64,000 nucleotides of DNA from Neoconidiobolus thromboides FSU 785 (Eukaryota > Entomophthoromycota > Entomophthoromycetes > Entomophthorales > Neoconidiobolaceae), in NCBI GenBank assembly GCA_025603075.1, contig MU626295.1, positions 1 to 64,000 of the forward strand. Reading direction: 5' to 3'. Of the stretch, positions 1,597 through 62,509 are shown piece after piece. The position numbers were made by a program, and so were the translations under genes. The notes under the pieces are model-generated. The model was not told the origin of the DNA. It worked only from the letters and a program-made list of their open reading frames with translations, and did no database searches. Within the stretch, counting starts at the first letter, position 1. The number at the start of each line of letters is the position of its first letter.

Positions 1597-1694
1597 TGAA
1601 GATGTGTTTTTTCATTCAAGAATTTTAGTAACAATCTTTCCACTGAAATAGCGCTTAAAAAATGGAATAGTAATGAAATCAAAAAACATCCACA
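1597..1694 (+). repeat. Short TIR element (MITE-like), copy 1
   Basis: Matches the family consensus TGGGGATGT...ACATCCCCA with a degenerate left end (TGAAGATGT) and an intact central AGCGCT. It lies just downstream of the F-box gene and 97 bp before copy 2. Confidence 0.8.
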
Positions 1695-1791
1695 TATGTT
1701 AAATATCAACAAAACGTTTAAAAAGCTTCTTTCAGTTTATTTTTTAGCTTTTATCTTACTCTCTTCTTAATAATTTTAATAAAAAAATATA

Positions 1792-1889
1792 TGGGGATGT
1801 GTTTTTCCATTTAAGGATTTACTAACAATTTTTCCACTCAAGCAGCGCTTAAAGATGGAAAAAGTAATGAAGTCAAAAAAACATCGCCA
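1792..1889 (+). repeat. Short TIR element (MITE-like), copy 2
   Basis: Flanked by TA on both sides, with left end TGGGGATGT, right end ACATCGCCA and central AGCGCT. Same orientation as copy 1. Confidence 0.88.
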
Positions 1890-2068
1890 TATTAAAGTGT
1901 TCTCCTTAAATCATAACTATATATTTTTAATTGATTGGCTAATATCCATGATGTTAATAAGCTCCTTATTTTATTTATTAACTCATAATCTATCTCGGTT
2001 AAATCCTTAAATTACCCTAAGAAATAATACGACATCTTATTCCTTTTAAAAAAATACAATTTTTTAAC

Positions 2069-2977
2069 ATGAAATCTAATTTACAACAAGTAATTCCTAC
2101 CAAACTTTAATTAAATATGAGTAAATTATATTTTCGTTAGATTCTCAAACAAAGTCAACGTTTATTTCAAAGCAGCACTAGAGCTTTTATAAAAGTTGGG
2201 CAAGAGTTATCAACTAAGTCAGTGCATTTAAACTCACCAGCAACTGAGATTAATTTATTTGAGCATTTTAAACAATATCCTTTAGCTATTTTATTTGGTG
2301 TTCCAGGTGCTTTTACTCCAGGTAAACTCACAATTCATTTTTAATCTATCCTATAATAATGTTGTTAGGCTGTTCCAAAGTAAAATATAAATTACTTTGT
2401 ATTCTAAATACAATTTGAAATTAAAATTATAATAGTCTCATTTGCCAAGTTACCTTGAAAATTATGAACAATTAAAACAAAAAGGAGTTGAAGAGATTGC
2501 TTGTTTATCTGTTAACGATGCTTTTGTTATGCAAGCTTGGGGCGAAGCAAATAATACTGATAAAAAGGCAAGTTAGACCATGAATAATAGTTCGGTTCAT
2601 TTTATCTAAACCTTCAATTAGATCACCATGTTTGCCGATGTAAATGCTGAAGCTGTTAAGGATATGGATTTACAATTTGACCTTCCTGGTAAATTTTAAC
2701 TGATACCATTATTGTTTTATTTTAAAATAAGATATAGTTTTAGGCGGTATTCGCTCCAAAAGATTTGCTATGATTTTGAAGGTAGGATTTAATTTTAATT
2801 TGTTTACATTTAATTTATTTTAATTTTATTTAGAATGGTAAAGTGGACCAACTCTTTGTTGAGGTAAACTTTTATGACTTATTTATTATTTACGATTACT
2901 CATTAATTATTTTGTTTTAGCCGGATAATACTGGACTTTCAAATACCTTAGCTAAACATGTTTTAGAGAAATTATAA
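2069..2977 (+). CDS. Prx5/AHP1-type peroxiredoxin, 8 exons, probably mitochondrial
   Basis: Thiol peroxidase of the Prx5 (AHP1) family, which reduces H2O2 and alkyl hydroperoxides. Exons: 2069-2089, 2141-2321, 2369-2379, 2436-2567, 2622-2688, 2738-2781, 2834-2863 and 2921-2977, giving 180 residues. The peroxidatic cysteine is in GVPGAFTPGCSKSHLP, whose CSK comes from an 11-nt micro-exon. LGGIRSKRF and the C-terminal LFVEPDNTGLSNTLAKHVLEKL are typical of the family. Residues 1-22 are rich in Ser, Gln, Lys and Arg and have no acidic residue, so import into mitochondria is likely. The intron at 2568-2621 has a GC donor (GCAAGT). The first exon is short and the least certain part. The gene lies between the intact and dead F-box copies. 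Confidence 0.9.
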
Positions 2978-4081
2978 ATGGTTAGACATTTTGCACGTTT
3001 GTTTTATCTTTACTTTTTTATTTAATTTATTTGATGTTTATGTTTCAATAAAATTAACACAATGCTCTGCTGTGTTATCAAAGAGGACATTTTAAAGTCC
3101 TTTCCTAACAGAATAAACTTATTGAAAGGAATTCAGGGGGTCACTTGTTTTGATAAAAATTTCGATTTTATGTTTTGTTAACAAAACAAAATGTGTTTGT
3201 TATTTATTATAAAGCTATAATAATAACCAAAGTTTATAAAGGTCGTTTTAACTACAGGCCTTTGATTTTGGTATTAGTAATCAACAAGTTTACCATATTT
3301 TAATCACTTCAAGTGTTAACAACAAAAGCAGCATTATTTGATAATTATTGAGATTACTGATCTTTTGTTTGTAACTACCATACTAATAAAGACATTAAAG
3401 CAATTATATTTTAATATTTTATCCAATTTATTTTGAAAATTTGGCCCAATGCTTGATAGGGTTCTAGATCACATTCGTATCGAATACAAGCAATAAGAAG
3501 TAAAGAAGTAGGAATATTGTAGGTAACAGTTGATTGTCTCATTTTCAAATCAAAGTATGGGGACTTTAATAACTTGAAGGTTTGAAAAAAATGATAAAAA
3601 ATCATCCAGATAAAGATTTAATTAATTAACTGTAATTTACTTTATAAGGTCAAGTTTATATTTATCAGTTTCACTTAAATCAGACTTTTGAAATAAACTA
3701 TTATTATCAATTGATAAACGACCAACAAAAACATGCCATATATTTGATAATAATGGAAGTACGTTGAGTAAACCTGTAGACAGATGATGTACATACGATT
3801 GCTTTGAGTCAATTAGTTTCATCAAATAATAGTTAATTGGCATATTGAAGTTTGACTCTACTGAAATAAATAAATTGCCTTTTTCATTAGTTTAATATTA
3901 ACATACATATCAAATAAATAGTTGGAATCATCTCTCAATTCTGTTTGCTTTAAACAATTTAAATTACCAAGGAACTCGATATTAAAGCCATCATAAAAAT
4001 ATCTTTCAATTTTTAACTTTAAAGGAGACACAAAACTGACATTGGGGTCGAGATTAACTAAGGATTATTAAAACCACTATA

Positions 4082-4180
4082 TGAAAATGTTTTTTTGGTT
4101 TCATTACTTTTTCCATTTTTTGAGTGCTACCTGAGCGGAAATTTTATTAGCAAAATTCTTAAGCAAAAAACACATTCCTA
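4082..4180 (-). repeat. Short TIR element, copy 3, inside the dead F-box gene
   Basis: Minus orientation, flanked by TA. The central hexamer has decayed to AGTGCT. It interrupts the dead gene at the site matching TTTAGCATGGTG of the intact paralogue (around 776-787). Confidence 0.88.
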
Positions 4181-4758
4181 TATGCTAAATTTAGTACTTT
4201 TAAATTTAAAAACTTTGTTTTTATTATATCTAATCCACTAAGCTTTATAATAAAGTTTAATGTTAACGAATTCAACATATTAGGATTAAAATATTCAACT
4301 ATATATTCAATACATCAAGTTCATTAAACCTGATTCTTTCCATTAATTCAATTGTTTCAATTTGATTGAGATAACTATTAAATAGCTTTAGATAGCCGAT
4401 AATATTGTTGTTATAAATAACTAACTTTTTTAGTTTTGTTAGATTTGTTTTAATACCAAATTCGATGTGCTGATTAATACCTTCATAATCAAAGTCATCA
4501 TTATAACTATCAATCTCTGACAATATTATATTAGAACAATTAATGATTTAAAACTTATCATCATATAAAATTAAATGTTTCGTTATTTCTCCATTTTGTT
4601 CAATAAAATTTTGTCAGTATGTACTATATTAATTACTCTCAATATAATAGATTGAATAATATAAATCGTATTTAATTGTATTGTTTGCAATATTAAATGA
4701 ACATTTATTTAAAAAGCGCAAATTAAATTGTTTAGTCGAATCTAATAATTTGAATATA

Positions 4759-4859
4759 TGGGGATGTATTTTTGTGTTTAAGAATTTTGCTAACAACTTT
4801 TCCACTCAAATAGCGCTTAAAAGATAGAAAAAGTAATGAAGCCAAAAAAAACACCCTCA
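4759..4859 (+). repeat. Short TIR element, copy 4, inside the dead F-box gene
   Basis: Left end TGGGGATGT, right end ACACCCTCA, central AGCGCT, flanked by TA at 4757-4758 and 4860-4861. The intact paralogue has an uninterrupted GATATATTCAAA at the same place. Confidence 0.93.
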
Positions 4860-5272
4860 TATCTTGTAATGAAATAATAGGCAAACGATTGAGTTGAATG
4901 GTCATTTTAAATAAATTTATAAAGAGTCAAAACGAATTTTACATTGATTACGTATAAATGTTCTTTTCAAATTTTAATACTAATTTCCATGCAAAAAAAA
5001 ACTACAGAAACTTATGAAAAATACTAATGTTCAATATAAATAAAAATGATAATTCTCAATGGCTTACATTATAACTATCAGCAGTAATACATTCTATTCA
5101 ATGTGTTTATACTGTTATTTTATCACAATTAAACTAAATTTAAATAAAACTATGTAAACTATAAGTAAATTAGCATTTAAGAAATTTCAAAAACTATCAT
5201 AACACAGTAAACCAAGCTACATAAATATAAAAAACAAAATTTTAATATAAAAAATTACTCTATAAAATTAAA

Positions 5273-6576
5273 TTAAAGCTCAATTTCGTCTGGATTTTCA
5301 TCCGGACCATTGGCTTGATTATTGTCTGGTTCGTCCTCTGATATCACTTCTGGGATATCTTTTATAATATCTACAACTTTATCCACTTCAATCTTATCAT
5401 AATCATTATATTTTGGTACTTTTGAATTATTATTTGGTTTTGGCTTGATATTTAAATCTCTTTCTAAAGCTTCAATATCACTATCATCATTAGTAAGCCC
5501 AATAGATTTTAATTTTGGTGATGAATCATTGACTGGTAAAATTGGGCTAATATTTAAATTATCGGGCATTTCATGGTATACATGTATGGTAGGAAATTCA
5601 TAAAATCTAATATGAGATAAAGCTTGTTGCAATGGCGTATCTGAATCAAGTTGGTAGAAAGTAGGGGTTTTGGCCTAAAAATATAAATAATGGTTTCATA
5701 TTATACAAAAATCGCTTACGTTGGTATTTATTTTTGAAATAAAGTAGTATAATTCTATACTTTGAGTTAATATGCTACTACAAGGATGTTCTTTGACTGA
5801 TTTTAACATTTTGATATCATCCGAATTTTTGCTACTGTTAACCTTTGATCGAATTTTTGATTCGAATAATTCATCCAATGTTTCTATACCCTTATTATAA
5901 TGAGTTACTACTTCAATATCCATTTTATCATTAATTATAAGTTTCCAAGTGATAGTCCAAAATGACGTATTCTCCCTTAATTAAAGTTAATATGCCTCTA
6001 ATTTAAGTTGTTAAAATTACCTATAGCACCAAAAGGAGCGATTAAGCTTAGCTTTAAGCATACCTTTACTTAAGCTCATAGCTTTAATATTAAAGGATTC
6101 TAATTTTTTATTTAACAAGTTTAGTTTCTTATTATAATTGGTATTTTTAAACTCGGCTTTATGATGAAGCTCTCTTTCTGAATTTTCCGCTATCCTTGTA
6201 ACTTCTGTTAAATATTTATAATCTAAAATCTTCAGTTATATATATTTTGTTGTACCAATATATTACCATTTAATAAACTATTTTCATCCAATTTAGCCTT
6301 TGGCAAGAACTCAAAATTTGCCTTTTTACCACTGCATTTATTACGAGCTTTATGAGTTTTAACACACTCCACGCAACATGTTTTCATCAAACAAGCTGGG
6401 CATTTATATTTAAAATCCTCTTTTTTACATACTTCACACTTAGTATCATCAATAATTTGACCAATACTAGTTATATAAACTTCGTTTTTTTTATTTGGTT
6501 GGTCTCTTATCTTGATTTCTCCTTCCTGTATCGGTATAGTCGTTTCTTCAGACTCAAATAATGGAAAAAAAGACAT
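5273..6576 (-). CDS. BCD1: Box C/D snoRNP assembly factor, BCD1/ZNHIT6-like
   Basis: BCD1 is a nuclear HIT-zinc-finger protein needed to build box C/D snoRNPs for rRNA methylation. Exons on the minus strand: 6576-6267, 6222-6021, 5975-5720 and 5674-5273, giving 389 residues with introns of 44-45 nt. Residues about 47-84 form the zf-HIT module (CEVC, then YKCPAC, TCCVECVKTH and C). DYKYLTEVTR follows directly, then GMLKAKLNRSFW and FWTITWKL, which match the family core. The end of the conserved part, FYQLDSDTPLQQAL...EFPTIHV, is the usual BCD1 C-terminal signature. An acidic tail follows. The start is 396 bp from the divergent PPR-like gene, so they may share a promoter region. Confidence 0.85.
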
Positions 6577-6972
6577 TTTATTAAAAGAGGTTTTATTAGC
6601 TACATGAAATTCTTGAAATTTGTGCTCAAAGAAATTCTCAAAGCTGCAAAAAAGGTTTTATGTACTTTGAATTTTTGCGTTAAGTAAAATTTGCTTATAA
6701 AATAAGCTTACAAAGAAGTGCGATCTTATTATAAAGATTAGATACAAATTGTAAAAGTAATAAAATAAATACAGTAAATTAATTTTTATATATACTGGTC
6801 CTTTAATTAGTTTTTATTCACTTAATTTTATATTCTAAAATTGATTGAACTTAATTATAGTTAGGGAATGAAACTAGTTAAAAACTCCCATCTAAACAAA
6901 TAGGATCAATTCTAAAGCTACTCGATTTTACACAAAAAAACAATTAAACTTTTTTAAATTATTTAGAGTTTT

Positions 6973-8382
6973 ATGAAAATAATAATTCATCAATTGAAAC
7001 ATAAATTAACCAAAATACGTTATGAATCCATTATAATTGATAAATACAGGTACATAAATCAAATTTTTAACATCAAAGCAAGTTTCAATTATTCTTCTAT
7101 CGCCACAAATAGTATTAATATAATAAAAAATAACGATGTTGATTCAAGCCTGATATCAAAGAAAAACGTGGAATTTTATAATGAATGTGTTAATATAAAA
7201 GCAAGCAGTGAAAACAGACTTGATGATTCTGATACAGATTTAAAAATCATTAGCTATATCCAAGGTTTAAAGAAATTCCCTAATTATAATCAATTTTTTA
7301 AATTCATAAAGAAAAAACAAGGTAGAATAACTATCGATGGGTATCATAATAAAAGTAAAGAAGAGATTGATCAAACTTATGTCAATGTTTCAAATCAACT
7401 GTTTAATGCAAGTAAGAGTACTATTAATTCATTTGATAGCTTAATCCTATGTAAACAACTAGAATATAAACAGTTAAAATTTATCTATTTTTACATAAAA
7501 GAACATAACGTAAAACTAGCAGGGAGTACGTACTACAAACTAGCTCACCAAGCATTAAGAATTAAAGATTTTAGTTTTTTTTATAAACTATTAATGGATC
7601 AATTTTATGATGGCAATTTACTAGATGAAAAGCAACTTGAATCATTTAACTTATTACCTCCTGCTGATCGTAGTTTTATTTATCAAACAATAGGTCTTAA
7701 TCTATTTAAATCTGTTAACAATTATTTAATAACTAGTTTTATAACAAATTGCACCATTAAAAATTTAGAAAATGTCACTATCTATAATGAATTAAAAGAT
7801 AGCATCAACCTACCATCCAATGTTTCAAAAAACCGATTACTTCATTTGATTAAATTTTCAATTAAGGCATGTGATGTGAATCAAGTAGAAATGTATTACA
7901 ACATAGCTATTAAGCAAAAGGAATCTATAGACGAAACGCTTTATGTAAGTTTATTTAAAATATACTCACTTGGAGGGTATGGAAAGAAAGCGAATAAAAT
8001 ATGGAGTTTAATACCCAAGAATCATCCAGCTTATGCGTCGACTGCTTCATTGGCCTTAGATAATTGCTATCTCTATTTGGATTTACAAACATTAAATGAA
8101 ACTTTTGAACAAATTCGACATCATACTCACATCGAAACCAATCATTATACCTCTTATTTAGAAGGTTTAGTTCAATTTCAACAATATGAAAAAGCAACAG
8201 AAATATTTATTAAGGATTTATGTATAGATAGAATTTGTAAACCGAATCCAAAAACATTTCAAAAATTGGTCGTTTCTATTAAAACTATTGCGGTTAGAAA
8301 TGATGACAGAAACCTTCTTCACCTAGTTAAAAGGATCCTTGTTGCTTATAAATTATACCTTCAATCTAATCCCTCTCATTAA
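6973..8382 (+). CDS. PPR-like protein, probably mitochondrial
   Basis: A 469-residue, single-exon protein. The first 40 residues are basic and hydrophobic with no acidic residue before Glu18 (MKIIIHQLKHKLTKIRY), as in a mitochondrial presequence. The C-terminal half has helix-pair repeats of about 35 residues that look like pentatricopeptide or TPR-type units, such as YVSLFKIYSLGGYGKKANKIW and HYTSYLEGLVQFQQYEKATEIF. Such proteins usually bind organellar RNA. I cannot name the orthologue. It is transcribed divergently from BCD1. Confidence 0.7.
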   Translation: MKIIIHQLKHKLTKIRYESIIIDKYRYINQIFNIKASFNYSSIATNSINIIKNNDVDSSLISKKNVEFYNECVNIKASSENRLDDSDTDLKIISYIQGLKKFPNYNQFFKFIKKKQGRITIDGYHNKSKEEIDQTYVNVSNQLFNASKSTINSFDSLILCKQLEYKQLKFIYFYIKEHNVKLAGSTYYKLAHQALRIKDFSFFYKLLMDQFYDGNLLDEKQLESFNLLPPADRSFIYQTIGLNLFKSVNNYLITSFITNCTIKNLENVTIYNELKDSINLPSNVSKNRLLHLIKFSIKACDVNQVEMYYNIAIKQKESIDETLYVSLFKIYSLGGYGKKANKIWSLIPKNHPAYASTASLALDNCYLYLDLQTLNETFEQIRHHTHIETNHYTSYLEGLVQFQQYEKATEIFIKDLCIDRICKPNPKTFQKLVVSIKTIAVRNDDRNLLHLVKRILVAYKLYLQSNPSH

Positions 8383-9236
8383 GAAATAAAAGTGCTTTTA
8401 GTTATTTTGTTTTCCTTATTGTTTTTTCTGCTCATTCAAAATTTAATTCTACTTACTTTAGATTAACTTTTATTTAAATATTTGATGTTTTCGTTAATAG
8501 GTCTGCGATTTTGTAGAATACACAATAGTGTATAAGTTGATCCCCTTTTTTAATAAGTATAATTGAGTTATTCTAATATAAAATGCATTTGATTACGCCG
8601 AAGTATTTAAAATTTGCTATCAGATATTACATATCACTAAAGATCTCGGTTTCAACTGTCTTTATTATCACAAAGTTGAGAAACCGTCTTGTGACAAATT
8701 TGTGTTTTACACCATCATCAAAGCCTTTCGGAACCCAATTCTGACTTATCTCAAGTACTTCATTTTTGTTTTTGCTCGCTTTCTTTCCTACTTCATTCAA
8801 CTTGTGAATATCTTCTCTCATTACTGTTTTTTTATCAATTTTCCATTCAAGCTACTAAAACCTGGATCATTTACACATATTTTTCTAAACTATCAGTTGA
8901 TAGTACACCTACTGCACCTCAAACTGCCTCTATTTTAGTTCATACCTGGATTGATATGTGCAAAATTGGATATAAAATAGTTAAATATATTTTACCATGG
9001 TCCAAAGCAGACGCCATTAAATTATAGTATCTTCTTTCACATACTTCGTTTTTATCTACCCTCTTTTTTTCCCCTCTTTTTACTTCCCTTTATTTTTAGC
9101 TTGTACATTCATAAATGAAACCCTTAAGATTGTCGATTCTTTCGGGATTTGAAAAAAACAATTTATTTAAAGTATTGTCTTTTAGGAATAATTAGCATTT
9201 TTTAAAATATGTAGATTCACTTTTATTATCATCATA
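8383..9236. other. Gene-poor stretch with one weak coding-like tract
   Basis: No gene recognised. On the minus strand, 8627-8821 is open and less AT-rich than its surroundings (KLNEVGKKASKNKNEV, then WVPKGFDDGVKHKF). I find no upstream exon or domain to support it, so it may be a relic. Confidence 0.3.
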
Positions 9237-9337
9237 TGGGGATGTATTTTTGTATTTAAGAATCTTACTAACAAATTTTCCACTTAAATAGCACTTAAAA
9301 AATGGAAAAAATAATGAAGTCAAAAAAGATACTCCCA
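9237..9337 (+). repeat. Short TIR element, copy 5
   Basis: Flanked by TA, with left end TGGGGATGT and right end ATACTCCCA. The central hexamer is AGCACT, a CpG transition of AGCGCT. Confidence 0.9.
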
Positions 9338-10356: not shown

Positions 10357-10454
10357 TAGGGGTGTTTTTGGTTTCATCACTTCTTCCATTTTTTAAGTGC
10401 TATTCAAGTGAAAAAATTGCTAGTGAAATTCTTAAACAAAAAAATACATCCCCA
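10357..10454 (-). repeat. Short TIR element, copy 6
   Basis: Minus orientation, flanked by TA, with ends TAGGGGTGT and ACATCCCCA. The central hexamer has decayed to AGTGCT. Confidence 0.88.
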
Positions 10455-10798
10455 TAGAAATCTTATTAATCTTATTACTTGGTATTTAATACTCAGTACT
10501 TATAATTTGATGTTCTTTATTTTTTGCTATCATTACTCATTAATAATATTCATTAAAGCCCATTATAATAAGCAATGATACCAATATGTGATTGTTTTAT
10601 TCAGTAAAAATTGATTTCAAGTTTATGATATTAATGTTTGGGCATTTAATCTCTTAATATAAAATAGCTTTAATATTTATTTTTAAAGTATTTTTAAGTC
10701 GAGAAATGATCTACCAAAATTTATTAATTTGATATTCAGAAATTGTGTAATTAAATAATAAACACTTTAGTAATAGCAATAATAATACTTTTATTCTT

Positions 10799-18100: not shown

Positions 18101-18109
18101 CCTTTGGCT

Positions 18110-19591: not shown

Positions 19592-19693
19592 TTGTGGGTG
19601 TTTTTTTTACTTCATTACTTTTTCCATCTTTCAAGCACTATTTGAGTGGAAAAACCGTTAGTAAAATTCCTAGATACAAAAATATATCCCTTA
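19592..19693 (-). repeat. Short TIR element, copy 7
   Basis: Minus orientation, flanked by TA, with left end TTGTGGGTGT and a decayed right end. The central hexamer is AGCACT. Confidence 0.82.
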
Positions 19694-22234: not shown

Positions 22235-22330
22235 TGGGGATGTATTTTTTTGTTAAGAATTTTACCAACAATCTTTCCCACTTAAATAGCGCTCAAAAAT
22301 GGAAAATAATGAAATCAAAAAACATTCCCA
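22235..22330 (+). repeat. Short TIR element, copy 8
   Basis: Flanked by TA, with ends TGGGGATGT and ACATTCCCA and central AGCGCT. Confidence 0.9.
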
Positions 22331-22786: not shown

Positions 22787-22880
22787 TGGGGATGTTTTTT
22801 TAGTTTTATTACTTTTTCCATTTTTAAGCGCTATTTGAGTGAAAAGATTGTTAGTAAAACTAAAAAAAAATACACCTCCA
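22787..22880 (-). repeat. Short TIR element, copy 9
   Basis: Minus orientation, with left end TGGGGATGT preceded by TA and right end ACACCTCCA followed by TG. The central AGCGCT is intact. Confidence 0.88.
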
Positions 22881-23715: not shown

Positions 23716-24552
23716 TTATTCTTTAACTCCAACCAAAAGTTTCATATTCCACACCACTTTTTTAACCTCCTCCGGCTCTCCCCAAGCCTTCAAAAGTTGC
23801 TCATAATTCTCAGTAAGCGCGTCTTTCTCGGTATCCTCTTTATACAATTGCGCTGATGATCGAGTTCTAAGATAATCACAATACTGATCTAAATTTAAAT
23901 GTTTAACCGATGAAAACTGTTTATTGACTCCATCGGAATCCTTTGTATGCCACTCTGGTGTTTTAAAAGGCCAAGGGATAGTAGAATACCCTTTTTTACA
24001 ATGTTCAACCTCTATAGGGTCGTATTTTTCAAAATAATCTTTTTCAATTTGAACATGTATTTGGTTAACTTCTTTGTTAACTTCAGGGTGCCAGTAAACC
24101 CACGCTGCTATGATCCCTCCTTTTTTTAATACTTTATTAACTCGTTCATAGAATTTATCAAATGGAAACCAATGTATACCTACAGCTACAGTGATTAAAT
24201 CAACCGAGTTTGGAGCTATTAGATTGGAATCAATAGCTTCACTTGGCTCTACTTCATATCTTATATTAGGCTTTTTTATTGCTTCAGAAATTTGCTTTTC
24301 ACTTAGATCAGTGGCTATTACATTATCAAAATAATCCGCTAATAAACTTGCAGCTTGACCATTTCCAGTGGCTACATCCCTAAAGAATGATTAAAGTTTG
24401 AATTTTATTATGGACATAGTGACTTACCAAGCCAATTCTCTTTTTGTAATATTCTTTGTTAAATAATCGAACAACTCCTTTGGATGAGATGGTCTATTTT
24501 GAGCATATATTTTAGAGTGGTTAGAAAATAAATCTTTGCTTTCACTTTTCAT
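23716..24552 (-). CDS. SAM-dependent methyltransferase, paralogue A
   Basis: Class I methyltransferase resembling fungal Crg1/trans-aconitate methyltransferase-type enzymes. The substrate is unknown. Exons 24552-24428 and 24379-23716 give 262 residues. Motif I is DVATGNGQAASLLADYF, followed by VIATDLSEKQI, SVDLITVAVGIHWF and VLKKGGIIAAW, in the usual order. I chose the ATG at 24552 because the paralogue starts at the same MKSESKDLFSNHSK. An in-frame ATG at 24609 would add 19 basic residues. The divergent paralogue starts at 25002. The middle of the gene, including the intron, is almost identical to the paralogue while both ends differ. Confidence 0.88.
24114..24429 (-). repeat. Gene-conversion-like tract, copy in methyltransferase A
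   Basis: 316 bp matching 25125-25440 in inverted orientation with two mismatches seen by eye. It includes the whole 48-nt intron. Identity drops sharply at both edges. Confidence 0.85.
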
Positions 24553-25001: not shown

Positions 25002-25841
25002 ATGAAGAGTGAAAGCAAAGATTTATTTTCTAATCATTCAAAAAACTATGCGGTTTATCGTCCAACACATCAAAAGGATTTGATTGAATATCTAGTATCC
25101 TTTGTAAATGAAAAAAGGCTAGTATGGTAAGTCACTATGTCCATAATAAAATTCAAACTTTAATCATTCTTTAGGGATGTAGCCACTGGAAATGGTCAAG
25201 CTGCAAGTTTATTAGCGGATTATTTTGATAATGTAATAGCCACTGATCTAAGTGAAAAGCAAATTTCTGAAGCAATAAAAAAGCCTAATATAAGATATGA
25301 AGTAGAGCCAAGTGAAGCTATTGATTCCAATCTAATAGCTCCAAACTCGGTTGATTTAATCACTGTAGCTGTAGGTATACATTGGTTTCCACTCGATAAA
25401 TTCTATGAACGAGTTAATAAAGTATTAAAAAAAGGAGGGATTATAGCAGCTTGGACATATTATATACCAACAATTAATGAACAAGTTGATGAGGTACAAA
25501 ACAAAATTCACATTGAAAAAGTAAAACAATTTGAAGCTGAAGAAGTTAATTATGTAAGTAATGGATATGCTAATTTACCTTGGCCATTTAGAAAACCAGA
25601 TAATTTTCAATGTGGTGAGGATGGCGTTAACCAAAAATTTTCAGTAAGTAAAGAAATGGATTTTAATCAATATTGTGAGTTTTTTAAAACTAGTTCAGCT
25701 GCTCAATTATACTTTGAAAATAACGGAAAAGACATTATTCAAGATCACTACAATGAAATGCTTGAGGCTTGGGGTAAGAATCCATCTATTACTAGGAAAG
25801 TTACTTGGAACATTAAGCTGTTGCTTGGCGTCAAAGAATAA
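25002..25841 (+). CDS. SAM-dependent methyltransferase, paralogue B
   Basis: Divergent partner of the methyltransferase at 23716-24552. Exons 25002-25126 and 25175-25841 give 263 residues. It carries the same motif I (DVATGNGQ), DLSEKQ and HWFPLDKFYERV. The first 42 residues and the C-terminal half are clearly diverged from paralogue A (for example WTYYIPTINEQ against WVYWHPEVNKE). Different C-terminal halves hint at different substrates, since this part shapes the acceptor site in the fold. The starts are about 450 bp apart, so a shared promoter region is possible. The substrate is not known. Confidence 0.88.
25125..25440 (+). repeat. Gene-conversion-like tract, copy in methyltransferase B
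   Basis: Partner of 24114-24429. The only differences found are two C/T changes in the codons for PLDK/PFDK. Confidence 0.85.
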
Positions 25842-25993: not shown

Positions 25994-26090
25994 TGAGGAT
26001 GTTTTGTTTGGTTTCATCACTTTTTCCATTTTTCAAGCGCTATTTGAGTAGAAAGATTGTTAGTAAAATTCTTAAATAAATACATCCCCA
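25994..26090 (-). repeat. Short TIR element, copy 10
   Basis: Minus orientation, flanked by TA, with ends TGAGGATGT and ACATCCCCA and central AGCGCT. Confidence 0.9.
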
Positions 26091-26362: not shown

Positions 26363-26463
26363 TGGGGACGTATTTTTGCGTTTAAGAATTTTACTAACAA
26401 ATTTTCCGCTCGAGTAGCGCTTAAAAGGTGGAAAAAGTAATGAAGTCAAAAAAATCATCCCCA
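26363..26463 (+). repeat. Short TIR element, copy 11, next to a tRNA
   Basis: Left end TGGGGACGT preceded by TA, right end TCATCCCCA followed by TG, central AGCGCT. It ends 37 bp from the 3' end of the initiator tRNA gene. Confidence 0.9.
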
Positions 26464-26490: not shown

Positions 26491-26499
26491 TTAGTAAGT

Positions 26500-26571
26500 T
26501 AGCAAATGTAGGTTTCGATCCTACGACCTCGGGGTTATGAGCCCCGCGCGCTTCCTCTGCGCCAATTTGCT
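26500..26571 (-). tRNA. Initiator tRNA-Met (CAU)
   Basis: A 72-nt cloverleaf without intron. The acceptor stem AGCAAAT pairs with ATTTGCT. The anticodon loop CTCATAA sits on a GGGG/CCCC stem. Initiator marks are the A1-U72 pair, three G-C pairs below the anticodon loop and the T-loop GATCGAAA in place of TTCRA. It serves start-codon selection in cytoplasmic translation. Confidence 0.95.
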
Positions 26572-27043
26572 ATAAATTATTGACTAACAATTTCTACTTA
26601 ACCTAATTTTTATTTTTTAGTTTACAAATAAGATCTAATGTTCTTGCAAAGGATCATAAATTATACTTAGTACGAATTCTAGTCAATAAGAACTATAGTA
26701 ACTTAGTTACTTCTTTTAATTCTATTTTAGAATGGTATTTCTTTTAATCAAATAAAATATATTAAATGGCAGTTACCAAGACAGTGGAAAACTAATAAGC
26801 GGTAGAATTTTGAATAGGGTTTAATAAAAATAGACTAAAAAAAGAGGGGGTGGATAAAAAAACTGGTAAGATAAGAGATGAATAAGAGGTACACTTAGAT
26901 TGGAGGATAAGTAAAAAGAAAAGAAGGAAACTTAGAAAAGGAAATAGGACTAGGGAATCGCAACTGGTTAAGGCAAAGTATTGAATTCAATCAAAAATAC
27001 CAAGTTTTCCGTATTATGGTTCTACTAAAATTAATATTATTTT

Positions 27044-37269: not shown

Positions 37270-38836
37270 TTCCCCAAAACTTGATATTTCTATTCTTAAA
37301 TTGTAAATTATTGTAAATTAAGAATGGTATTAAGCCAATTAAATGAATATTTTCTGAAGATTACTTCCGCATAAAGCTTAGCTCTAGAGTAAAAAGGTCA
37401 AAATCAATCTAGCAAAGTTGCTAAAATTGAAAGTAAATTCATTAAAAAATTATACTAACAACTTTTATCATTGTATTTTAAACTGATGAAATTAGAATAG
37501 TGTAAATTATGAAGAACGGCATCTACTAATAAATATTAATAATAATAAATTATATTTACTTTATATTAATAGTCAGTTTATTTTTCTTAATGATTATTGT
37601 TTTTTTATTATGAATTTTCAGAGGATAAAATTTCTAAAGTATTTTGTTTTTAAAATAATATCAAAGCCTATTAGGATTGAGGTAAAAAATTAGAACAAAG
37701 AGAGTTACCTTAGGTTTGCTTCAAACATTCTGACTTTGATTTGACTTCTTTGGACTTGGTTAGCTATACACATTACTTTCATTGTTTTTAATAGCCAATA
37801 TTTGATTTAAAAACAAAAACTTACTAATTTTTTTAAATAAAACCAGTCTTTAGGTTAATTAAAAATGACTTATTTTATTACTATAAAATAAAAGCAAAAT
37901 AAAACAATTAAATAGTTATAAAAAGATAAATGAATTCTCTATACTTTATACCTTTAATTATAGAAATACTAAAGTTTGAATTGCCACTTTAATCATGTGG
38001 GGGTGCTTTTTTTAGTTTCATTATTTTTCCATTTTTTGAGCGCTATTTGAGTAGAAAGATTGTAGCAAAATTCCTAAACAGAAAAATTCATCCTCATGTA
38101 TAAAGTAATCGAATTCGTTAAAATTGTCAATCCATTCAAAAAAACCTTATCAAAATAGCACTGTTAATTTTATCATCATACAATGGTTACTTGCCCAATT
38201 GATTTTATGCAATGATTTTCCTAATCTTTAAGAAATTGAAAACTGACATTTTCAACTGTTTTAGTTTAGTCATTATTTGAATTATGAATAATCTTATTCT
38301 TTGTTTGAACTTTTATAAGCCTTCTTTTTTTGATAGATAGAGTTTATCATATTTATAAAAAAATTTGATATTTTAATAAGTACCTCTTGATTATAAACTT
38401 TAAATAAAGTTTTTTTAAGCAAGTGACTGTTTTTTAGATTATTTGTAATCTATTGAACTGACCTTTGAGTCTGTACTCATAAGCTACCTAAAAACTTAGC
38501 TTTTAAGAAAATTAATTGAAATTTTTAGTTTCAAAATTTTGGGTGCAATAAACTATAAGTAATAACTGTTTTAACTGTTTTAGATAAGCCATGTTTTTAA
38601 TCTTATTTATCAAATTATTACAGATACATCTATCATCATTTAAGTTTGATTAGTTTCGAGTAACATATGAATAGGAACCACAAAGCTATGATATACAATC
38701 AATATATTATTAAAAATTAAAAAAGTATTAAAAATTAATAAGGAACACTAAAAAACACTAAAAAAATTAAACTTTATTATATATTACAATGGGAATGTGG
38801 TTAGTAAAAAGCGAAGCAAAAATAAAAACAAAGAAT
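37270..38836. other. Gene-poor stretch with MITE copy 12
   Basis: About 1.6 kb between two minus-strand genes. Apart from MITE copy 12 I see no feature. The first few hundred bases should hold the helicase promoter. Confidence 0.45.
37998..38096 (-). repeat. Short TIR element, copy 12
   Basis: Minus orientation with central AGCGCT. Unlike most copies it is flanked by TG on both sides in place of TA. Confidence 0.87.
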
Positions 38837-41212: not shown

Positions 41213-41309
41213 TGGGGATGTGTTTTTTTATTTAAGAATTTTACTACAATCTTTCCACTCAAATAGCGCTTAAAAAATGGAAAAATAATGAAACTAAAAA
41301 ACAGCCTCA
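41213..41309 (+). repeat. Short TIR element, copy 13
   Basis: Flanked by TA, with ends TGGGGATGT and ACAGCCTCA and central AGCGCT. It abuts copy 14, sharing the TA between them. Confidence 0.9.
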
Positions 41310-41311
41310 TA

Positions 41312-41407
41312 TGAATGAATGTTTTTTTTTGGTTTCATCACTTTTTCATTTCTAATATGTTATTTTAATGGGGAAGTTAATAAAATTCTTTAAAAAAAAC
41401 ATCCCTA
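41312..41407 (-). repeat. Short TIR element, copy 14, degenerate
   Basis: Minus orientation, in inverted contact with copy 13. The right end ACATCCCTA is followed by TA. The core is strongly decayed and AGCGCT is lost. Confidence 0.75.
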
Positions 41408-42356: not shown

Positions 42357-42922
42357 TATAGTGTGAAATCTGGTACTTAGTGATTGGAGCCAAAAACAGC
42401 TATTGCTGGGTTGACTACACTATAAGTCGAAAGGTCTTAGTTTATGTGACTAAGATAGATTTAGATTATAAAGAATAGCACGTAATAGGCTATGGACTAT
42501 GTAAGACAAATAGAATAGACAATAATAATGTAAAATCTACATAAAATACTATTAAGTAAACTTAATGGCTTTATTAAATGTTCGAAATATCAGTGAATAA
42601 TTCAGTTAAAAAGCCTCGAGCTACTATACTCTAAAATCTCTTTTACACTCTGAAAAGTATAAATATCAAAATAAGATAATATTCTTTGGGATGAAGCTAG
42701 AAACCCTCATAGCAAACCAAACTAAGAGCGTGAGATTAATTGCCTCTAAACTCAAGAACGCAACAGTTTAGGTGATTATTATGCTATAATTAACCACGGG
42801 GCTGACAAAGCGATATTTCACAATAGTAAGTTTAATTAACTTCAAATAATTTTCCTATTAAAAATTATTGTGTTCTTAAATTGATATGATTAATTTAGAA
42901 TTTTTTAGTTGAATTTATTATA

Positions 42923-42958
42923 TGGGGATGTATTTTTGTGTTTAAGAATTTTATTGAT
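42923..42958 (+). repeat. Short TIR element, copy 16, left half only
   Basis: A well-kept left end (TGGGGATGTATTTTTGTG, then TTTAAGAATTTTA) preceded by TA. Homology stops before the core, so the right part has been deleted. Confidence 0.8.
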
Positions 42959-43142: not shown

Positions 43143-43243
43143 TGGGGATGTATTTTTGTATTTAAGAATTTTACCAGCAAATTTTCCACTCAAATAGCGC
43201 TTAAAAAATCGAAAAAATAATGAAGTCAAAAAAAACACTCTCA
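43143..43243 (+). repeat. Short TIR element, copy 17
   Basis: Left end TGGGGATGT, right end ACACTCTCA followed by TG, central AGCGCT. Confidence 0.88.
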
Positions 43244-52140: not shown

Positions 52141-53058
<918 letters not shown>

Positions 53059-54029: not shown

Positions 54030-54809
54030 TTTGTAAGCCTGTTAGTATTTGTTTCAAAGAAAGGTTAGATAGAAAGCTTTTATATTATTTCTTTAAATTA
54101 GATTCTTAGTCCTATGATTCAATGGAAATAAACCTTATTTTTTTGGTAGTATAAGTTATTAGTGAAATTGCTTTATTTGGGTTCTATTTTTAAAAAAATT
54201 ACTTGCTTTAATAAAACTATACAAACTTAGCCAATTATATGATAATGTTGACTTGAAGAATACTAGCATATTTCTTGGGTAAATTCTTTTACACAAAGTT
54301 GTTAAAATATTAATGATCAAAATTCTAATTTAATCGAAAATATAATATTTTATTAACCTATAAGTTATTAAGTAGACATACAAAGCTAAACATCTATATA
54401 AATGTTTCCCATGGGCTTTATTAAAATGACTAATGTAATACTTTAGGAGTATTTATTTTATCATTTTTATATCATTTTTCAACTTAACGAATGGTTGATT
54501 TTTGTAAAAAATAAGTATGAAAAATAGAAAAGTAGAATTCCTAAAAAGAAATATAAATAACGCAAAGCACCACAAAAGAAATTAGCACATCTCTAATCTA
54601 TTTAGGCAAAGTTTATAAACATAATATCACTTTATGTAAATTAAGTATGGTTCAATGAATAGTATAGAATGAGCTAATATTTGAAATTATATAATATGAC
54701 TTTATTTTATTTTTGCTTAAAACATTCAAAATGAAGGCAAATTTTCATTGGATAATGAGAATTTTAAAAAATCCAAAATTTAAATAAAAATCATTTTATA
54801 AATTTGAGA
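54030..54809. other. Divergent intergenic region
   Basis: AT-rich DNA between the divergent thioredoxin-like (-) and VFA1 (+) genes. No other feature seen. Confidence 0.5.
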
Positions 54810-55364
54810 ATGATTAAAGAAAATAAATGGCAATTGAGAACAACAGCAAAAGAAGATAGTTGCTTTATATGCTATAAATTAACAAACTCATGTTTAGTGC
54901 ATGCCAGTACGAATCCCCCTATAGATTGGTTTTATACTTGTTTAAATCATCTCAATGACCCTGGATTTGGTACTTTAATCAACTTAAATAAAGAAGAGGG
55001 GAAAGAAAAGAGTCCTAAACAAAGCAAAACAGATATTGGTAAAACTACTTCAAAAAAGGAAGAAACAGATAAGAACGAAACAAACAAGAGTGAAATAAAT
55101 AAGGATGAAACAAATAAGGATGAAATGAAAAAAGATGTAAAAGAGAAGGAGGAAATAAAAGATGTAAAAGGAAAAGAAAAGGAAAAGGAAGAAGAAGAGG
55201 GGGAAAGTAAAACTGAAACTAAAAAACTAATAGGCTATAAAGAATACGAATTACACAGAGACATTTTATTTTTAAGAAACAATCATTTAAAAAGAAAATT
55301 ACAAGCTAAAAGGGATGCTGAGTTGATGAAGCAATTTCCTAAAGTACCCAAAGGTTTCCCTTAA
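54810..55364 (+). CDS. VFA1: Vps4-associated protein 1 (Vfa1-like)
   Basis: Vfa1 binds the AAA ATPase Vps4 and tunes ESCRT-III disassembly at endosomes. It is a single-exon protein of about 184 residues. The N-terminal zinc-binding module has CFICYK, VHASTNPPIDWFYTC and HLNDPGF, which match the family. The middle (about residues 60-140) is a long charged Lys/Glu/Thr-rich run with near-repeats such as ETNKSEINKDETNKDE. The C-terminus (YELHRDILFLRNNHLKRK, then FPKVPKG) fits the helical Vps4-binding end. The ATG at 54810 is used. The open frame reaches a TTG two codons earlier. Confidence 0.88.
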   Translation: MIKENKWQLRTTAKEDSCFICYKLTNSCLVHASTNPPIDWFYTCLNHLNDPGFGTLINLNKEEGKEKSPKQSKTDIGKTTSKKEETDKNETNKSEINKDETNKDEMKKDVKEKEEIKDVKGKEKEKEEEEGESKTETKKLIGYKEYELHRDILFLRNNHLKRKLQAKRDAELMKQFPKVPKGFP

Positions 55365-55814
55365 ATTTAAAGTTTTAATTAATACAATAAACATTTGATT
55401 ATCTGAAATAATTTTTATGGTTATTATTATTTTTTATTAATAATCATAGTCGTTTGTTGTTTATCTTAATACAATTATAGTTACTTTATATAATTATTTT
55501 TATTAATAAATTTATCATTTTGTCTATTATAGTAATTGTTCACCTAAATGATAATCATTTCGGAGTGAACCAGCATGACTAATAAAAAAATGATAAAACA
55601 TGATTGATAAAAGATAAAAAAAGTAAGGTGTGATTGGGAGATTGAGTATATAAACCAATAAAAGCAAAGCATGAGTAGAAGTATACGTAAGTGGGGAGTG
55701 TTACAAATGATATAATTAAAGGGAATAAAAAATATGGGAATAGAGCTACAAAAACTCAAAAAAAGCATATAAATACAGATAATTACTAATTCATATTTTA
55801 AATTTAAAATCAAA
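55365..55814. other. Intergenic, promoter side of DAHP synthase
   Basis: 450 bp of AT-rich DNA with nothing recognised beyond an expected promoter. Confidence 0.5.
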
Positions 55815-57380
<1,566 letters not shown>

Positions 57381-57728
57381 CTAAAAAGAATAAGCTATGT
57401 AAAACGATAGTTTATATTTATTTTGACCATACTTATACAGTACAATAAAATATAATTCATTATATAATTGTTTTGATCCTTCTTTCAAATTTAATGATTT
57501 GTCTGTTTTATTATGTGATTATTTTCAAAAGTAATACTACAATACCTATTGGATTTATATTTAATAAAATAATATAAAATAAAGTGACATTTTTATAAAA
57601 GTTACACTACATATCTATTATTCTGTATCCCTTTATAAACCATTTGAAATTTAAAATAAAAATATTAAAACATTACATAAATCTAATGACTATGTTAAAA
57701 TTTTATGATGTTCGTAATAAATAAGATA

Positions 57729-57829
57729 AGGGGATGTTCTTTTTGATTTCATTACCTTTTCCATTTTTTAAGCGCTATTTGAGCGGAAAATTTGTTAGTA
57801 AAATTCTTAAACACAAAAATACATCCCCA
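57729..57829 (-). repeat. Short TIR element, copy 18
   Basis: Minus orientation with right end ACATCCCCA, left end AGGGGATGT and central AGCGCT. The left flank is TA. Confidence 0.9.
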
Positions 57830-58062
57830 TGAAGTGGAATAAAATAAAGCAGGAAATTAATCTATTCTAGCACCTGTTATATGTTATTTAGCCTAAGTGA
57901 GCATTAGAATACTTTTAAGCCTTTCATGAACAACTTAATCTATCCTAAGAGTACAAACCACAACAAAGTATGTAGAATTGGTAGGGCTGTAATTAATTTT
58001 TGAATCCATACTCATTAAATTAAAAACCTTAGCCTTAAATAATTTGAATTTGAGAAAAGATA

Positions 58063-58156
58063 GAGGATGTTTTTTTTGATTTCATTACTTTTTCCATTTT
58101 TTGAGCACTATTTAAATGGAAAATTTATTAGCGAAATTCTTATAAATACACCCCCG
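58063..58156 (-). repeat. Short TIR element, copy 19
   Basis: Minus orientation, flanked by TA. The ends are decayed (GAGGATGT, ACACCCCCG). The central hexamer is AGCACT. Confidence 0.82.
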
Positions 58157-58896
58157 TATAATAAGAAAAGAAATCTTCAAATATAGTATGAAAGTTCTTA
58201 AAAACATATATCTAATATAACTGTATCTAGCTGGAGTGTATATATTATTGTTAATAACATTCTCAATAGCCTTAAACTCATGAATCAATTTCTCAATGTC
58301 TTTTAATTTACCAAAATTAATAGATTCTATACTTAAAAATAAACTATATAAAATAAATATTTTTTTCTAGTAATGTTGATCGAAGAATCTAATAATTCCC
58401 TTGTAAAATATTAAAATAGGCTTATTATAACACTAATAATTTAATAAATTCTAATTAACACTATTATATGATCTGAAGTTATCCAAAATAATAAAGTTTT
58501 ATTTTCGTACTTATGTATTTTCATATTATTGTTTCCATTATAAGCCCTAAAATCTCGATTACCACTGTCTAATGCCTCTATGCATTTAAAGTGCTTCTTT
58601 AACTTGTCAGGATGTTAAACTTCAAAATTGCTCATAATATTTCCTAGGATTTCTAATTTTAAATCAAAGTTACAGTATATATAATAGCTTCAAAAATATT
58701 ACCAATAGAGAGCTTTGAGAACTCACTTGTAATACTTTCAATTAATTGGATTCTATTATAATAACATCCATCCCCTTAAGAGAAAGGTCATCATATGAAT
58801 GTATATTAATTACTATTAAATAATTTAGGTTAAACGACTAATCATTTCTCTAACATCTAAATATTATCCACGGATTTCAAACATCTTAATTTTTTT

Positions 58897-59400
58897 TTAA
58901 TAATTATAATCAGCTGAGACTATACTCAATCTTTTTAAACTTAGTAGTTCGACATTTATTTTGTAATTGTCGACATGATTGTTATTATTGTTTCTATCAC
59001 TACTATCATTATCGTTATCATTGCTTATATGATAGACACCATTGTCACTGGTATCTTGATTATTAACTTTGCTATTATTATTTAACATGAATATTATATC
59101 ATAATTTAGTGAAGTTAAATTTAAACAATAACTTGAATATTTGGTATTAATTTTATACATATTAAAACGTCTCATTAATATTCCATTTTCTTGATAAAGT
59201 ATTCTTGATAACACTAGTGTTCTATAAATTTTCTTTGATTTAGACTGAATAAGTTAAACGTGATTCAATAACTTTATCAACAGCTTCATATAAAAACTTA
59301 TTTAAAAGAGGGAGTTCAATAAACCCTACTGGATCCAATAGCCTAAAGACTTGCACCAATAATACATACAATAAATGCTCAAATTTTAGAGGTATTTTAA
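58897..59400 (-). pseudogene. Dead F-box/LRR gene
   Basis: Minus strand. An F-box-like start (IPLKFEHLLYVLLVQVFRL, then LDPVGFIELPLLNKFLYEAV) aligns with the intact gene at 139-1470. It hits TAA after RLTYSV, shifts frame, and continues as ILYQENGILMRRFNMY and LNLTSLNYD, which match QQNFIEQNGTMMKHIYLY and PNITSLEID of the intact gene. A poly-Asn/Asp run follows before the stop at 58897. No ATG is preserved. Confidence 0.7.
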
Positions 59401-59892
59401 TAAGAGATAATTAAAAGAGAAAGAAAAGATTAGATAAATCAAAATACTTCATCTGTTTCAAATTAATTTTTAATTAGTTAACTATTTACTTAGTTCACAG
59501 TCACTAATTTTTTAGATTCCAATTCTGCTAAATACTCAACCAATTTCAAAGTGCTATTTATTTTTATTTATAATATGATTTATGCCTTTTAGGTTAAAAG
59601 GAAATTTATAACAACAGTAAATGTGATCTCATTTTGTGTATTTTATATTATTTTAAATAATAAGGCTTATTATATATATAAATTATGAAAGCTATTTATA
59701 TAATGAGAATTTTGTGAGTTCTAATACAGAGTTTTCGATTAGCATTCGTTTTGTTTAAAAAGACAAATTTCTTATAGAAAAATTATTGGACTTTTAACTA
59801 TATGTTCATTTCTATTCAAATCTGCCTAAACATTCCTATTATCTATGGAGCGACTTAACAGATGAATTGAATAACTTGGTTGGAGTTGTGTA

Positions 59893-59988
59893 TGGATGTC
59901 TTTTTTATTTAAGACCTATTTAAAAAACTACATTCTATACTTTATAACGCTTAAAAAGTGAAAAAAAGAAATCAATAAAGACATCCCA
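59893..59988 (+). repeat. Short TIR element, copy 20, degenerate
   Basis: Left end TGGATGT preceded by TA and right end ACATCCCA. The core is decayed (AACGCT). Confidence 0.7.
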
Positions 59989-60186
59989 AGTGAAGAGAAC
60001 AATGACTAAATTAAAAATCACTATCATATTCCTTTAGTTTAGAATTAATAAAGTATATTCAAAGGCCTAATATATTAGGCTTTGTGGAAACTACAATAAC
60101 AATCAACTAATATGGAATCTTATTTTTGATTGAACTTCACAATATATTAAAATATATTAAAATATATTGAAGTGGGATTAGACCAT

Positions 60187-60404
60187 TTTAATCTGTTATT
60201 GAAGGGCTTCTTAACCTTTCAATATCATCTATTGAATCAAAATTTATTAGATGAAATTTAATAAAAACTAGAAATACATCACTTTTAAATAGTACGCTAT
60301 AGCTGTGACGTGAATTAATTTTAGCATCGTATTGGAAGGCTTCTTAATCTTTTAATACCGTCTAACAAAAATAACTACGTCACTTTTAAATGATAGATTA
60401 AAGA
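60187..60404 (+). repeat. Two diverged direct repeats
   Basis: Units at about 60187-60290 and 60319-60404 share ATTGAAGGGCTTCTTAA / ATTGGAAGGCTTCTTAA, then AATA(T/C)C(A/G)TCTA, and end with CTA-x-ATCACTTTTAAATAG-like sequence. The second unit has a deletion. Confidence 0.65.
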
Positions 60405-60539
60405 TAAAATTAAGATTTATAATTCAAATAATTTAATGCAATAATAATACACCAAAATGCTTCAAATTTAAACTCATTACATGAATAGTGAATAAAAAAT
60501 CAAGGGATGAAACAAGTTTTAGATTAAGGGATAAAAAAG

Positions 60540-60547
60540 TATAAAAA
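60540..60547 (+). promoter_or_regulatory. Possible TATA box of the P450 gene
   Basis: TATAAAAA, 33-40 bp before the ATG at 60580, in DNA that is otherwise A-rich. It may be chance. Confidence 0.35.
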
Positions 60548-60579
60548 GTCCAAATAATCTTACAATAAAAATTTAAAAA

Positions 60580-62175
60580 ATGATTTATTACATTTTACCA
60601 ATAATTTTAGTAGTAACTATATTTGCTTATAATTTTATTCAAAACAAAAAGGATCCGAATAATGATTTACCATCGACTGGTATCTTCAACTTAATTTATC
60701 ATGTTATAAAACAGACGCCATCTCAGATAAGAGATCAAGAGTTGTTAGTACCTTTATTTCAATCAAACAAATATATTAAGTTTTGGTTAGGAAAATGGTT
60801 TATTATGGTATCTGATTTAGATACAATTAAGAATATATTAATGGATAGCGATACATTTATTAAATTAAATCAATCAAAACAATTTAAGCGGATTATCTCT
60901 TTAGATAAAAATATAGCAGTTGTAGATGGCGATGAATGGAAAAGACATAAAAAAGTAGTTAATCCTGCATTTAAAAGAGGATGGGATATTAAAATATTTA
61001 TTAAAGTTGGTATTAAAGCGATTAATTATATGAAAAAGAATGGGAATGACTTTGAGTTAATTAAATTATTAAAGAATTCCACATTAGATAGTTTAGGTTT
61101 ATCTATTTTTGATGTTGATTTTAATTCCATTGAAGATGAAAATTGTGAAATATCAACACTTTATGTAAATTTTATTAAAGGTATCAATAATATCTGGTTT
61201 CTTTTATTCCCTTTCTTAGATAACTTACCTATCCCTTCAAGAATTCAATTAAAGAAGGATACTGATCGCTTTTGTCAATTGCTTAAAGATTTAATTAATG
61301 GAAAAAGAGAACAAATTAAAAAATATGGTGTTGATAATGTTAAATCAAGTTTACTAACTATGTTAATTCAATCTTCAGATGATAATAATAGTATATCGGA
61401 TGGGTTGACAGATGAGGAAATCATTGTAAGTTATAATTTAAGTATCTAAACTAATGTATGATACTAATTATTTAGAGTGATGTCATTGTATTTTTTATTG
61501 CTGGACATGATACTACTGCACATACTTTATCTTCCATACTATATTATTTATCAAAAGATCAAGTAAAATTAATATTTTATATTATTGATATTCAATATTT
61601 AATTTATTATTTAGGATATTCAAAACAAATTAAGAGATGAAATAATCCATGTTTTGGGAGAAAGATCTAAGAACATTAATGAAGACATTCAAATAACACA
61701 AGAAGATTTGAATAAAATGAAATATTTAGAGGCAGTTATCAATGAAGGAATGAGAATCTTACCAGTAGCCTCAATAATAACACGTCAAGTAGCTAAAGAT
61801 TATTATTTTAATAATGAAATCCAATTTAAAAAAGGACAACCATTATTGTTAAATTTAGCCTTAGCAATGAATAATGAAACTAAATTTAAACATCCAGAAG
61901 AATTTAATCCAAATCGTTTTTTAATTCAAAATGAAAAAGAAGAGATACAAATTGATAAAAAATTAACTAAAGATATGATTGGCTTTAGCGTTGGTCCTAG
62001 GATGTGTATTGGAAATCAATTTTCACTTTTGGAACAAAAAGTATTCTTGATTTTGATATTACTAAAATTTAATGTTGAGTTACCACAGGATTCTATTCAT
62101 TGTAAACATCCTATCCTCCCTGCTTTAGGGATATCTAGTCCAAAGGATCTCAAATTAAATTTTATTCCGATTTAA
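60580..62175 (+). CDS. Cytochrome P450 monooxygenase
   Basis: Haem-thiolate monooxygenase anchored in the ER by residues 1-18 (MIYYILPIILVVTIFAYN). Exons 60580-61425, 61476-61562 and 61615-62175 give 497 residues. Helix C has WKRHKKVVNPAF. The I-helix oxygen-binding motif is AGHDTT at 291-296, the K-helix ExxR is EGMR at 355-358, then NPNRF, and the haem loop is FSVGPRMCIGNQF with Cys442. The haem loop has Ser-Val-Gly-Pro-Arg where the usual form is Phe-x-x-Gly-x-Arg, so the spacing is kept. All key residues are present. It resembles CYP3/CYP5-like fungal P450s. The substrate is unknown. Confidence 0.95.
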
Positions 62176-62408
62176 TATATTTGCGTGATTTTATAACTAT
62201 AGTTATCACCATTTTTATTGTAAAATCATATTAAAATTGTATTATTTTCAATATTTTAATAAATAAATATCTATAAAATTAATTTAAAATAATTGCTTTA
62301 AAAATCAATTATTTTATTTTATTTACAAAAATGATTAAGTAATAATACTGGAATTAATAACTTACAACTTAAAAGTAATAGTATTTTTGTTAATATGAAG
62401 TCAATATA

Positions 62409-62509
62409 TGGGGATGTATTTTTTTGTTTAAGAATTTTACTAATAGCTTTTCTACTCAAATAGCGCTTAAAAATAGAGAAAAGTAATGAAACTAAAAAAA
62501 ACACCCCCA
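62409..62509 (+). repeat. Short TIR element, copy 21
   Basis: Flanked by TA, with ends TGGGGATGT and ACACCCCCA and central AGCGCT. It is one of the best-kept copies and lies 108 bp before tRNA-Arg. Confidence 0.92.

Follow-up and report, generated by a model that had tools for sequence, protein, structure and literature searches.

The window, a stretch of 64,000 nucleotides of the Neoconidiobolus thromboides FSU 785 genome (contig MU626295.1, here C38, positions 1 to 64,000; genome of 23.1 Mb in 392 contigs), contains 21 loci of an element of about 100 bp, distributed from 1597 to 62509, which is established as a palindromic (fold-back) miniature inverted-repeat transposable element (MITE) of this fungus. 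A second family of the same genome, named element B, shows homologous ends and encodes a transposase, and the MITE has probably been amplified by the transposase of B or of a close sibling (probability of about 0.8). This explanation is independent of whether B represents a new superfamily of DNA transposons.

The 21 loci were found by BLAST of the window with the element, and 19 of them were recovered near full length by an iterated nhmmer profile at E<=1e-3. Relative to the BLAST query, nine are on the plus strand and 12 on the minus strand. The 9-base end TGGGGATGT, with at most one mismatch, shows 32 occurrences in the window vs 5.3 in shuffles. The earlier note, made from the sequence alone, had described about 21 elements of 94-102 bp, twelve in plus and nine in minus orientation: the number of loci and the strand split stand, the latter under the opposite convention, and the size does not hold for all of them, since two are fragments (42923-42953 and ~59944-59989). 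The loci are the following (strand relative to the query; BLAST and profile, unless BLAST only is given):

1597..1694, minus strand, MITE copy
1792..1889, minus strand, MITE copy with TA/TA flanks
4082..4180, plus strand, MITE copy with TA/TA flanks, within a broken F-box-like paralogue; counterpart without the MITE at 732-844 (72.6% identity, CA for TA)
4759..4859, minus strand, MITE copy with TA/TA flanks, near the start of that same broken paralogue; empty counterpart within the intact paralogue at 129-238 (82.7% identity, junction gap-free)
9237..9337, minus strand, MITE copy
10358..10454, plus strand, MITE copy
19593..19692, plus strand, MITE copy with AT/AT flanks
22235..22330, minus strand, MITE copy with TA/TA flanks
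22787..22880, plus strand, MITE copy
25994..26090, plus strand, MITE copy with TA/TA flanks
26363..26463, minus strand, MITE copy about 35 bp from a tRNA-Met gene
37998..38096, plus strand, MITE copy with TG/TG flanks
41213..41307, minus strand, MITE copy; 41270-41317 matches the 3' end of element B (84% over 51 columns, E 2e-6)
41323..41407, plus strand, degenerate MITE copy, 75% identity
42262..42352, minus strand, MITE copy
42923..42953, minus strand, MITE fragment of 31 bp, 100% identical to the query, BLAST only
43143..43242, minus strand, MITE copy
57729..57829, plus strand, MITE copy, 96% identical to the query
58063..58155, plus strand, MITE copy
~59944..59989, minus strand, MITE fragment, BLAST only
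62409..62509, minus strand, MITE copy with TA/TA flanks, about 108 bp from a tRNA-Arg gene

Copy number was estimated from 15 ten-kb loci picked by position alone. The 15 stretches contain 40 copies, from 0 to 7 per stretch, and extrapolation to the whole genome gives 6,164 copies (bootstrap 4,007-8,630). Both 9-base ends are exact in 375 matches per strand genome-wide, with none in the reversed control; this pattern is palindromic, so every copy is counted on either strand, and the matches include at least one overlapping pair. The consensus of 133 aligned copies contains all the features described before: the shared ends, the inner pair TTTTTCC/GGAAAAA and the central AGCGCT. The imperfect palindrome is also borne out, as the nine terminal bases are all inverted and 31 of 50 arm positions pair without gaps in the query consensus. 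The boundary between flank and element is sharp in the aligned copies, and identity to the consensus has a mean of 0.88 and a maximum of 0.96, so that most copies are probably not very recent.

The target site was derived from 135 copies, which are the 167 profile hits without seven at edges, two duplicates and 23 with unclear ends; many of the loci behind these hits were chosen because they hold a MITE copy. The same two bases are present on both sides in 97 of the 135 copies, and the same three in only two. Flanks are identical over four bases in 17 copies, which a target rich in ATA|TAT would produce. Among copies with perfect ends, 26 of 30 show the 2-bp duplication. The 97 matching pairs are TA (70), TT (13), AA (6), CA (3), AT (3) and two others; TA on both sides, which the earlier note gave for most copies, thus predominates and is not universal. 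Where TA is on neither side, 28 of 38 pairs are identical vs 8.5 expected, and together with the exact-end classes this indicates that the non-TA pairs are real duplications. The 375 exact-end copies include 222 with TA/TA and 60 with TT/TT or AA/AA (29 and 31), and nine belong to the one discordant class searched, TT left with TA right or its complement; these classes cover all but 84 of the copies. The flanking A at -3 (0.89) and T at +3 (0.87) vary less than the duplicated bases (0.73-0.82), and next come A at -6 (0.74) and T at +6 (0.70). The target is therefore ANNA-NN-TNNT, with A-NN-T inside ANNANNTNNT.

Sites without the element were searched with 122 queries in which the two flanks were joined with one copy of the duplication, leaving out 12 copies whose flank is another MITE. 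Two of the sites are in the window, where an F-box-like gene family has three copies or fragments (127-1470, 3414-4757 and 59098-59395); the F-box label was given by eye, and Pfam shows no match for the paralogue at 127-1470. The two members involved are:

127..1470, plus strand, F-box-like paralogue with an open frame of 447 aa, source of the empty sites (ORF and empty-site alignment)
3414..4757, minus strand, part of the broken F-box-like gene carrying two MITEs (tblastn pieces, 54-69% identity)

The junction of the copy at 4759-4859 aligns without gap to 129-238, and that of 4082-4180 aligns to 732-844, which reads CA in place of TA; the two MITEs split the paralogue at 3414-4757. Outside the window, a copy at locus L033 sits in another repeat, which has nine uninterrupted stretches, one of them with a one-base gap at the junction, and locus L008 contains both a copy with CA/GA flanks and an uninterrupted counterpart of its site, which reads TA. 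Several other alignments resemble chance matches of AT-rich sequence and were not used. The non-autonomous MITE proposed before is supported by its sharp ends, the 2-bp duplication, several empty sites and an estimated copy number of about 6,200, and the sharp ends and the duplication are found across genomic copies, the latter being of 2 bp and not TA only.

Element B was found from ends lying outside MITE copies, which define a second family with ends of the TGGGG(A/C/T)TG(T/C)CC type. A query of 279 bases yielded 124 first-look candidates; 40 of these were scored and gave 44 matches, several of them at contig ends. Long open frames, of up to 566 aa, are present in several B copies. One B copy was read whole (C34:62610-65346): it has 2,737 bp, extends from TGGGGTTGTCC to GACAACCTCA with TGGGGtTGTC termini, and its flanks, AGCATA and TATAAT, fit the target palindrome of the MITE. 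This copy contains three nested MITEs, without which it has about 2.4 kb. Two of the three have a gap-free counterpart in a B copy on contig C7, one of them with a junction mismatch; the flanks of the third join cleanly by eye if its end is placed at ~1770, as the profile does, and leave a gap with the end at 1762. Aligned without gaps, the 3' end of B and the 5' arm of the MITE share 33 of 45 bases, a score that no piece among 5,000 drawn at random from the genome reaches. BLAST also links B to MITE copies at loci L031, L037 and L045 (E 2e-6 to 8e-5), besides the window copy at 41213-41307. The ends of the two elements are homologous, not identical, and B is a candidate autonomous partner. 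Locus L022 (618-1070) shows an element of 453 bp with B-type ends on both sides, TA flanks and a nested 100-bp MITE, which is probably a second, longer non-autonomous derivative of B.

The protein encoded by B is a transposase with a CxxC motif ahead of a D...D...D core. The family signature is TD(M/L)CxxC before the core, followed by DFKEN..WSDxGxHFRS..AEHHGKSxVDGHFG, and the three acids are conserved across B and its relatives, which are found in Smittium culicis and in further sequences. The second-acid motif, W-D-x-G-x-H-F, resembles the D-N-G motif of integrases, and the third acid is likely the D within VDGHFG (D340), or else the nearby E332; two rows of the family alignment (A3) stop before D340. 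The three acids are probably catalytic. In predicted structures, the relatives of B have an integrase/mariner fold of the RNase-H-like DDE/D kind, with a three-acid core of integrase type; when superposed, these cores fit Mos1 and integrases about equally well. The window shows no homologue of the B transposase (tblastn with four proteins, E<=0.01), consistent with the previous statement that it contains no transposase. B is the only transposon found whose ends correspond to those of the MITE (33/45), and its protein has no DDE match in Pfam.

Because the ends are homologous and B shares with the MITE both an unusual target and the genome, it is probable, on sequence comparison, that the enzyme of B or of a sibling moved the MITE. 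A B-type transposase would join TGGGG termini to an AT-rich palindrome, ANNA^NN^TNNT, whose strands would be cut with a stagger of 2 bp; such cuts would duplicate the dinucleotide, preferably TA and also TT/AA, CA or AT. The mode of transposition would be cut-and-paste.

A nearly even chance is given to the proposal that B and the MITE lie within a known superfamily which Pfam does not cover or from which they are too diverged, for example an ISL2EU/PHIS offshoot with A|NN|T, or a lineage of Sola, Academ, Novosib or IS3EU. This proposal is compatible with amplification of the MITE by B. PHIS enzymes match the DDE_Tnp_4 model and the second ORF of ISL2EU encodes YqaJ. Neither the genome nor the B family shows a DDE_Tnp_4 match. 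In ISL2EU elements the duplicated dinucleotide is AT, set in A|AT|T between a conserved A and a conserved T (PMC4482050), a layout formally similar to A|TA|T here, but TA is the dinucleotide preferred here, and AT is found in 3 of 97 pairs. The duplication here, of 2 bp with TA preferred, differs from the TWA (3 bp) or A|AT|T of the PHIS group (PIF/Harbinger, ISL2EU and Spy), in which PHISTA, with TA duplications, is an exception (PMC12730594). Fungal PHISTA, ESTA and Plavaka DNA transposons resemble the present elements in their 2-bp, often TA, duplications (PMC12730594). PlavakaA, however, has 5'-TGT..ACA-3' ends, whereas those found here are TGGGG..CCCCA. Plavaka, EnSpm and Transib (the CMCT group) carry the motifs C(2)C and H(3-4)H in the interval from the second acid to the third (PMC12730594), and both are absent from all ten A3 rows, two of which stop short of the third acid. 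The predicted fold is like that of DDE enzymes of retroviral-integrase type, but no rve model matches at E<=1 and the likely third acid is the D in VDGHFG instead of an E, or else E332. Pfam gives no credible match for ten members of the B family, and NCBIfam, a library built for prokaryotes, none for four. Among PDB sequences there is no match to protein P0122, and the A3 profile has eight weak ones (E 0.078-0.8; ribosomal L23, GFP and others); the families compared are those in the VIA-align lists. Viral contigs scanned with the transposase alignment gave four pattern matches, none of which was confirmed. A literature search by titles and abstract openings found no description of this MITE or of the B transposase.

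It is suggested, tentatively and with somewhat less than even odds, that B and the MITE represent, as its first members, a eukaryotic DNA transposon superfamily not yet described, characterised by a D-D-D transposase of integrase fold, TGGGG ends and an A^NN^T duplication of 2 bp. This superfamily would be present in Entomophthorales, in Smittium, a fungus of insect guts, and in further sequences, and in one compact genome would have given rise to an estimated 6,000 copies of a derivative of 100 bp, which may insert preferentially near tRNA genes. The comparison behind this suggestion is with Pfam and NCBIfam models.

The earlier note had proposed that the elements fit the TA-targeting Tc1/mariner type, and a MITE of this type (IS630) moved by the DDE_3 or DDE_1 transposases of the genome, with later decay of the TA duplication, is now very unlikely. 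It would account for a short, palindromic element with flanking A and T whose commonest duplication is TA (222/375); the genome has 24 DDE_3 matches, 22 of them over the cut-off, and two DDE_1 matches, and the superposition on Mos1 also favours it. Nevertheless, 60 concordant TT/TT or AA/AA copies vs nine in the discordant class searched are hardly explained by decay of TA, and the B proteins and seven relatives match no DDE model of Pfam at E<=1, DDE_3, DDE_1 and Transposase_1 included. Six of the 24 DDE_3 loci and both DDE_1 loci were inspected over 1.5-3.5 kb each and show no enclosing pair of MITE-like ends, although in some of them the stretch covers only several hundred bases beyond the ORF; such ends adjoin three of the loci (L055, L056 and L057), not as an enclosing pair. 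Several inspected loci also read N at the expected catalytic D (by eye), and these DDE_3 proteins may be domesticated or inactive relatives of transposases. Membership in Tc1/mariner fails on the duplication, which is not TA-specific, and on the sequence of the partner. DDE_3 proteins with long ORFs are located on contigs C225, C162, C1, C18, C52 and C185 (L052-L057), some of them clustered on C225 and C162.

Amplification of the MITE by B was also weighed against a functional structured non-coding element (a hairpin RNA, a terminator or a regulatory cassette) kept by selection at an estimated 0.7 copies per gene. The consensus as RNA folds to -27.0 kcal/mol, and one window copy to -20.3 kcal/mol (z -2.7; 1/200 shuffles equally good), so the hairpin suggested before can form in a single copy, but conserved pairing is not found in the alignment: the consensus structure of the 133 copies is empty, and the 40 strongest column couplings include no pair from the stem of the folded consensus. 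Of the 34 stem pairs, three are in the top 200 vs 1.4 expected, with a median rank of 2,187.5 of 4,851. Compensatory changes in the GCGCT loop, a first impression, were not borne out by the alignment. No sign of selection on folding was found in the MITE alignment, nor any evidence of a host function.

The position of the copies also bears on this proposal. None of 57 copies in the window and the 15 loci has more than half its length within an ORF of 120 aa or more, in agreement with the claim that no copy lies in an intact exon, the two in the F-box-like family being in a broken paralogue. Such ORFs cover 34% of the bases and the probability of 0/57 under random placement is 6e-11, so that insertions in coding sequence have probably been selected against. 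Of the 57 copies, 43 lie between two ORFs, and 29 of these have a 3' end as their nearest ORF end (p 0.03). Four of the five tRNA genes in the same sample have a MITE within 150 bp (P 0.001, or P 0.0009 when compared with non-ORF positions), an association noticed post hoc:

tRNA genes near a MITE: window 26498-26572 and 62617-62691; L039 9491-9564; L046 4427-4500

The fifth, at locus L045, is 4.5 kb from the nearest MITE. A genome cross-check of little power gave one pair vs 0.2 expected, for 62 tRNA genes and 162 MITE positions among the matches listed; the 62 are those left of 63 scored (of 2,109 candidates) after removal of the window's own, and one is shared with the sample. The tRNA proximity is a lead only. 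With an empty consensus structure, clean empty sites and inverted ends that make the palindrome, a selected non-coding element is likewise very unlikely.

Two further observations concern the surroundings of the MITEs. The window contains an inverted pair of methyltransferase ORFs (23716-24390 and 25164-25841), about 80% identical over 723 columns, with MITEs 0.2-0.9 kb away on both outer sides; the Pfam basis of the label is the first ORF. A second repeat of about 460 bp, with ends TGTGAAAT...ATTTCACA, is present in the window (42362-42822) and at loci L001, L013, L021, L023, L028, L033 and L044; in L028, as read by eye, it appears to interrupt the end of a MITE and is flanked by TCCC on either side, which suggests a 4-bp duplication.

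Eukaryotic cut-and-paste transposons are grouped in 20 or so superfamilies (PMC9587614), and a transposase family beyond Pfam, common to two zygomycete lineages, might extend this list. The N. thromboides genome was reported as predominantly non-repetitive, with 13.5% repeats and 8,867 genes, and repeats of the 'Unknown' class were found in all five genomes compared (PMC11105155). These may include the present MITE, undescribed as such, which may number about 0.7 per gene and make up about 2.7% of the 23.1-Mb assembly (6,164 copies of 100 bp). Since the target is a short palindrome in which the dinucleotide is free, it could be used to test how enzymes of the integrase fold recognise target DNA without the duplicated bases being fixed.

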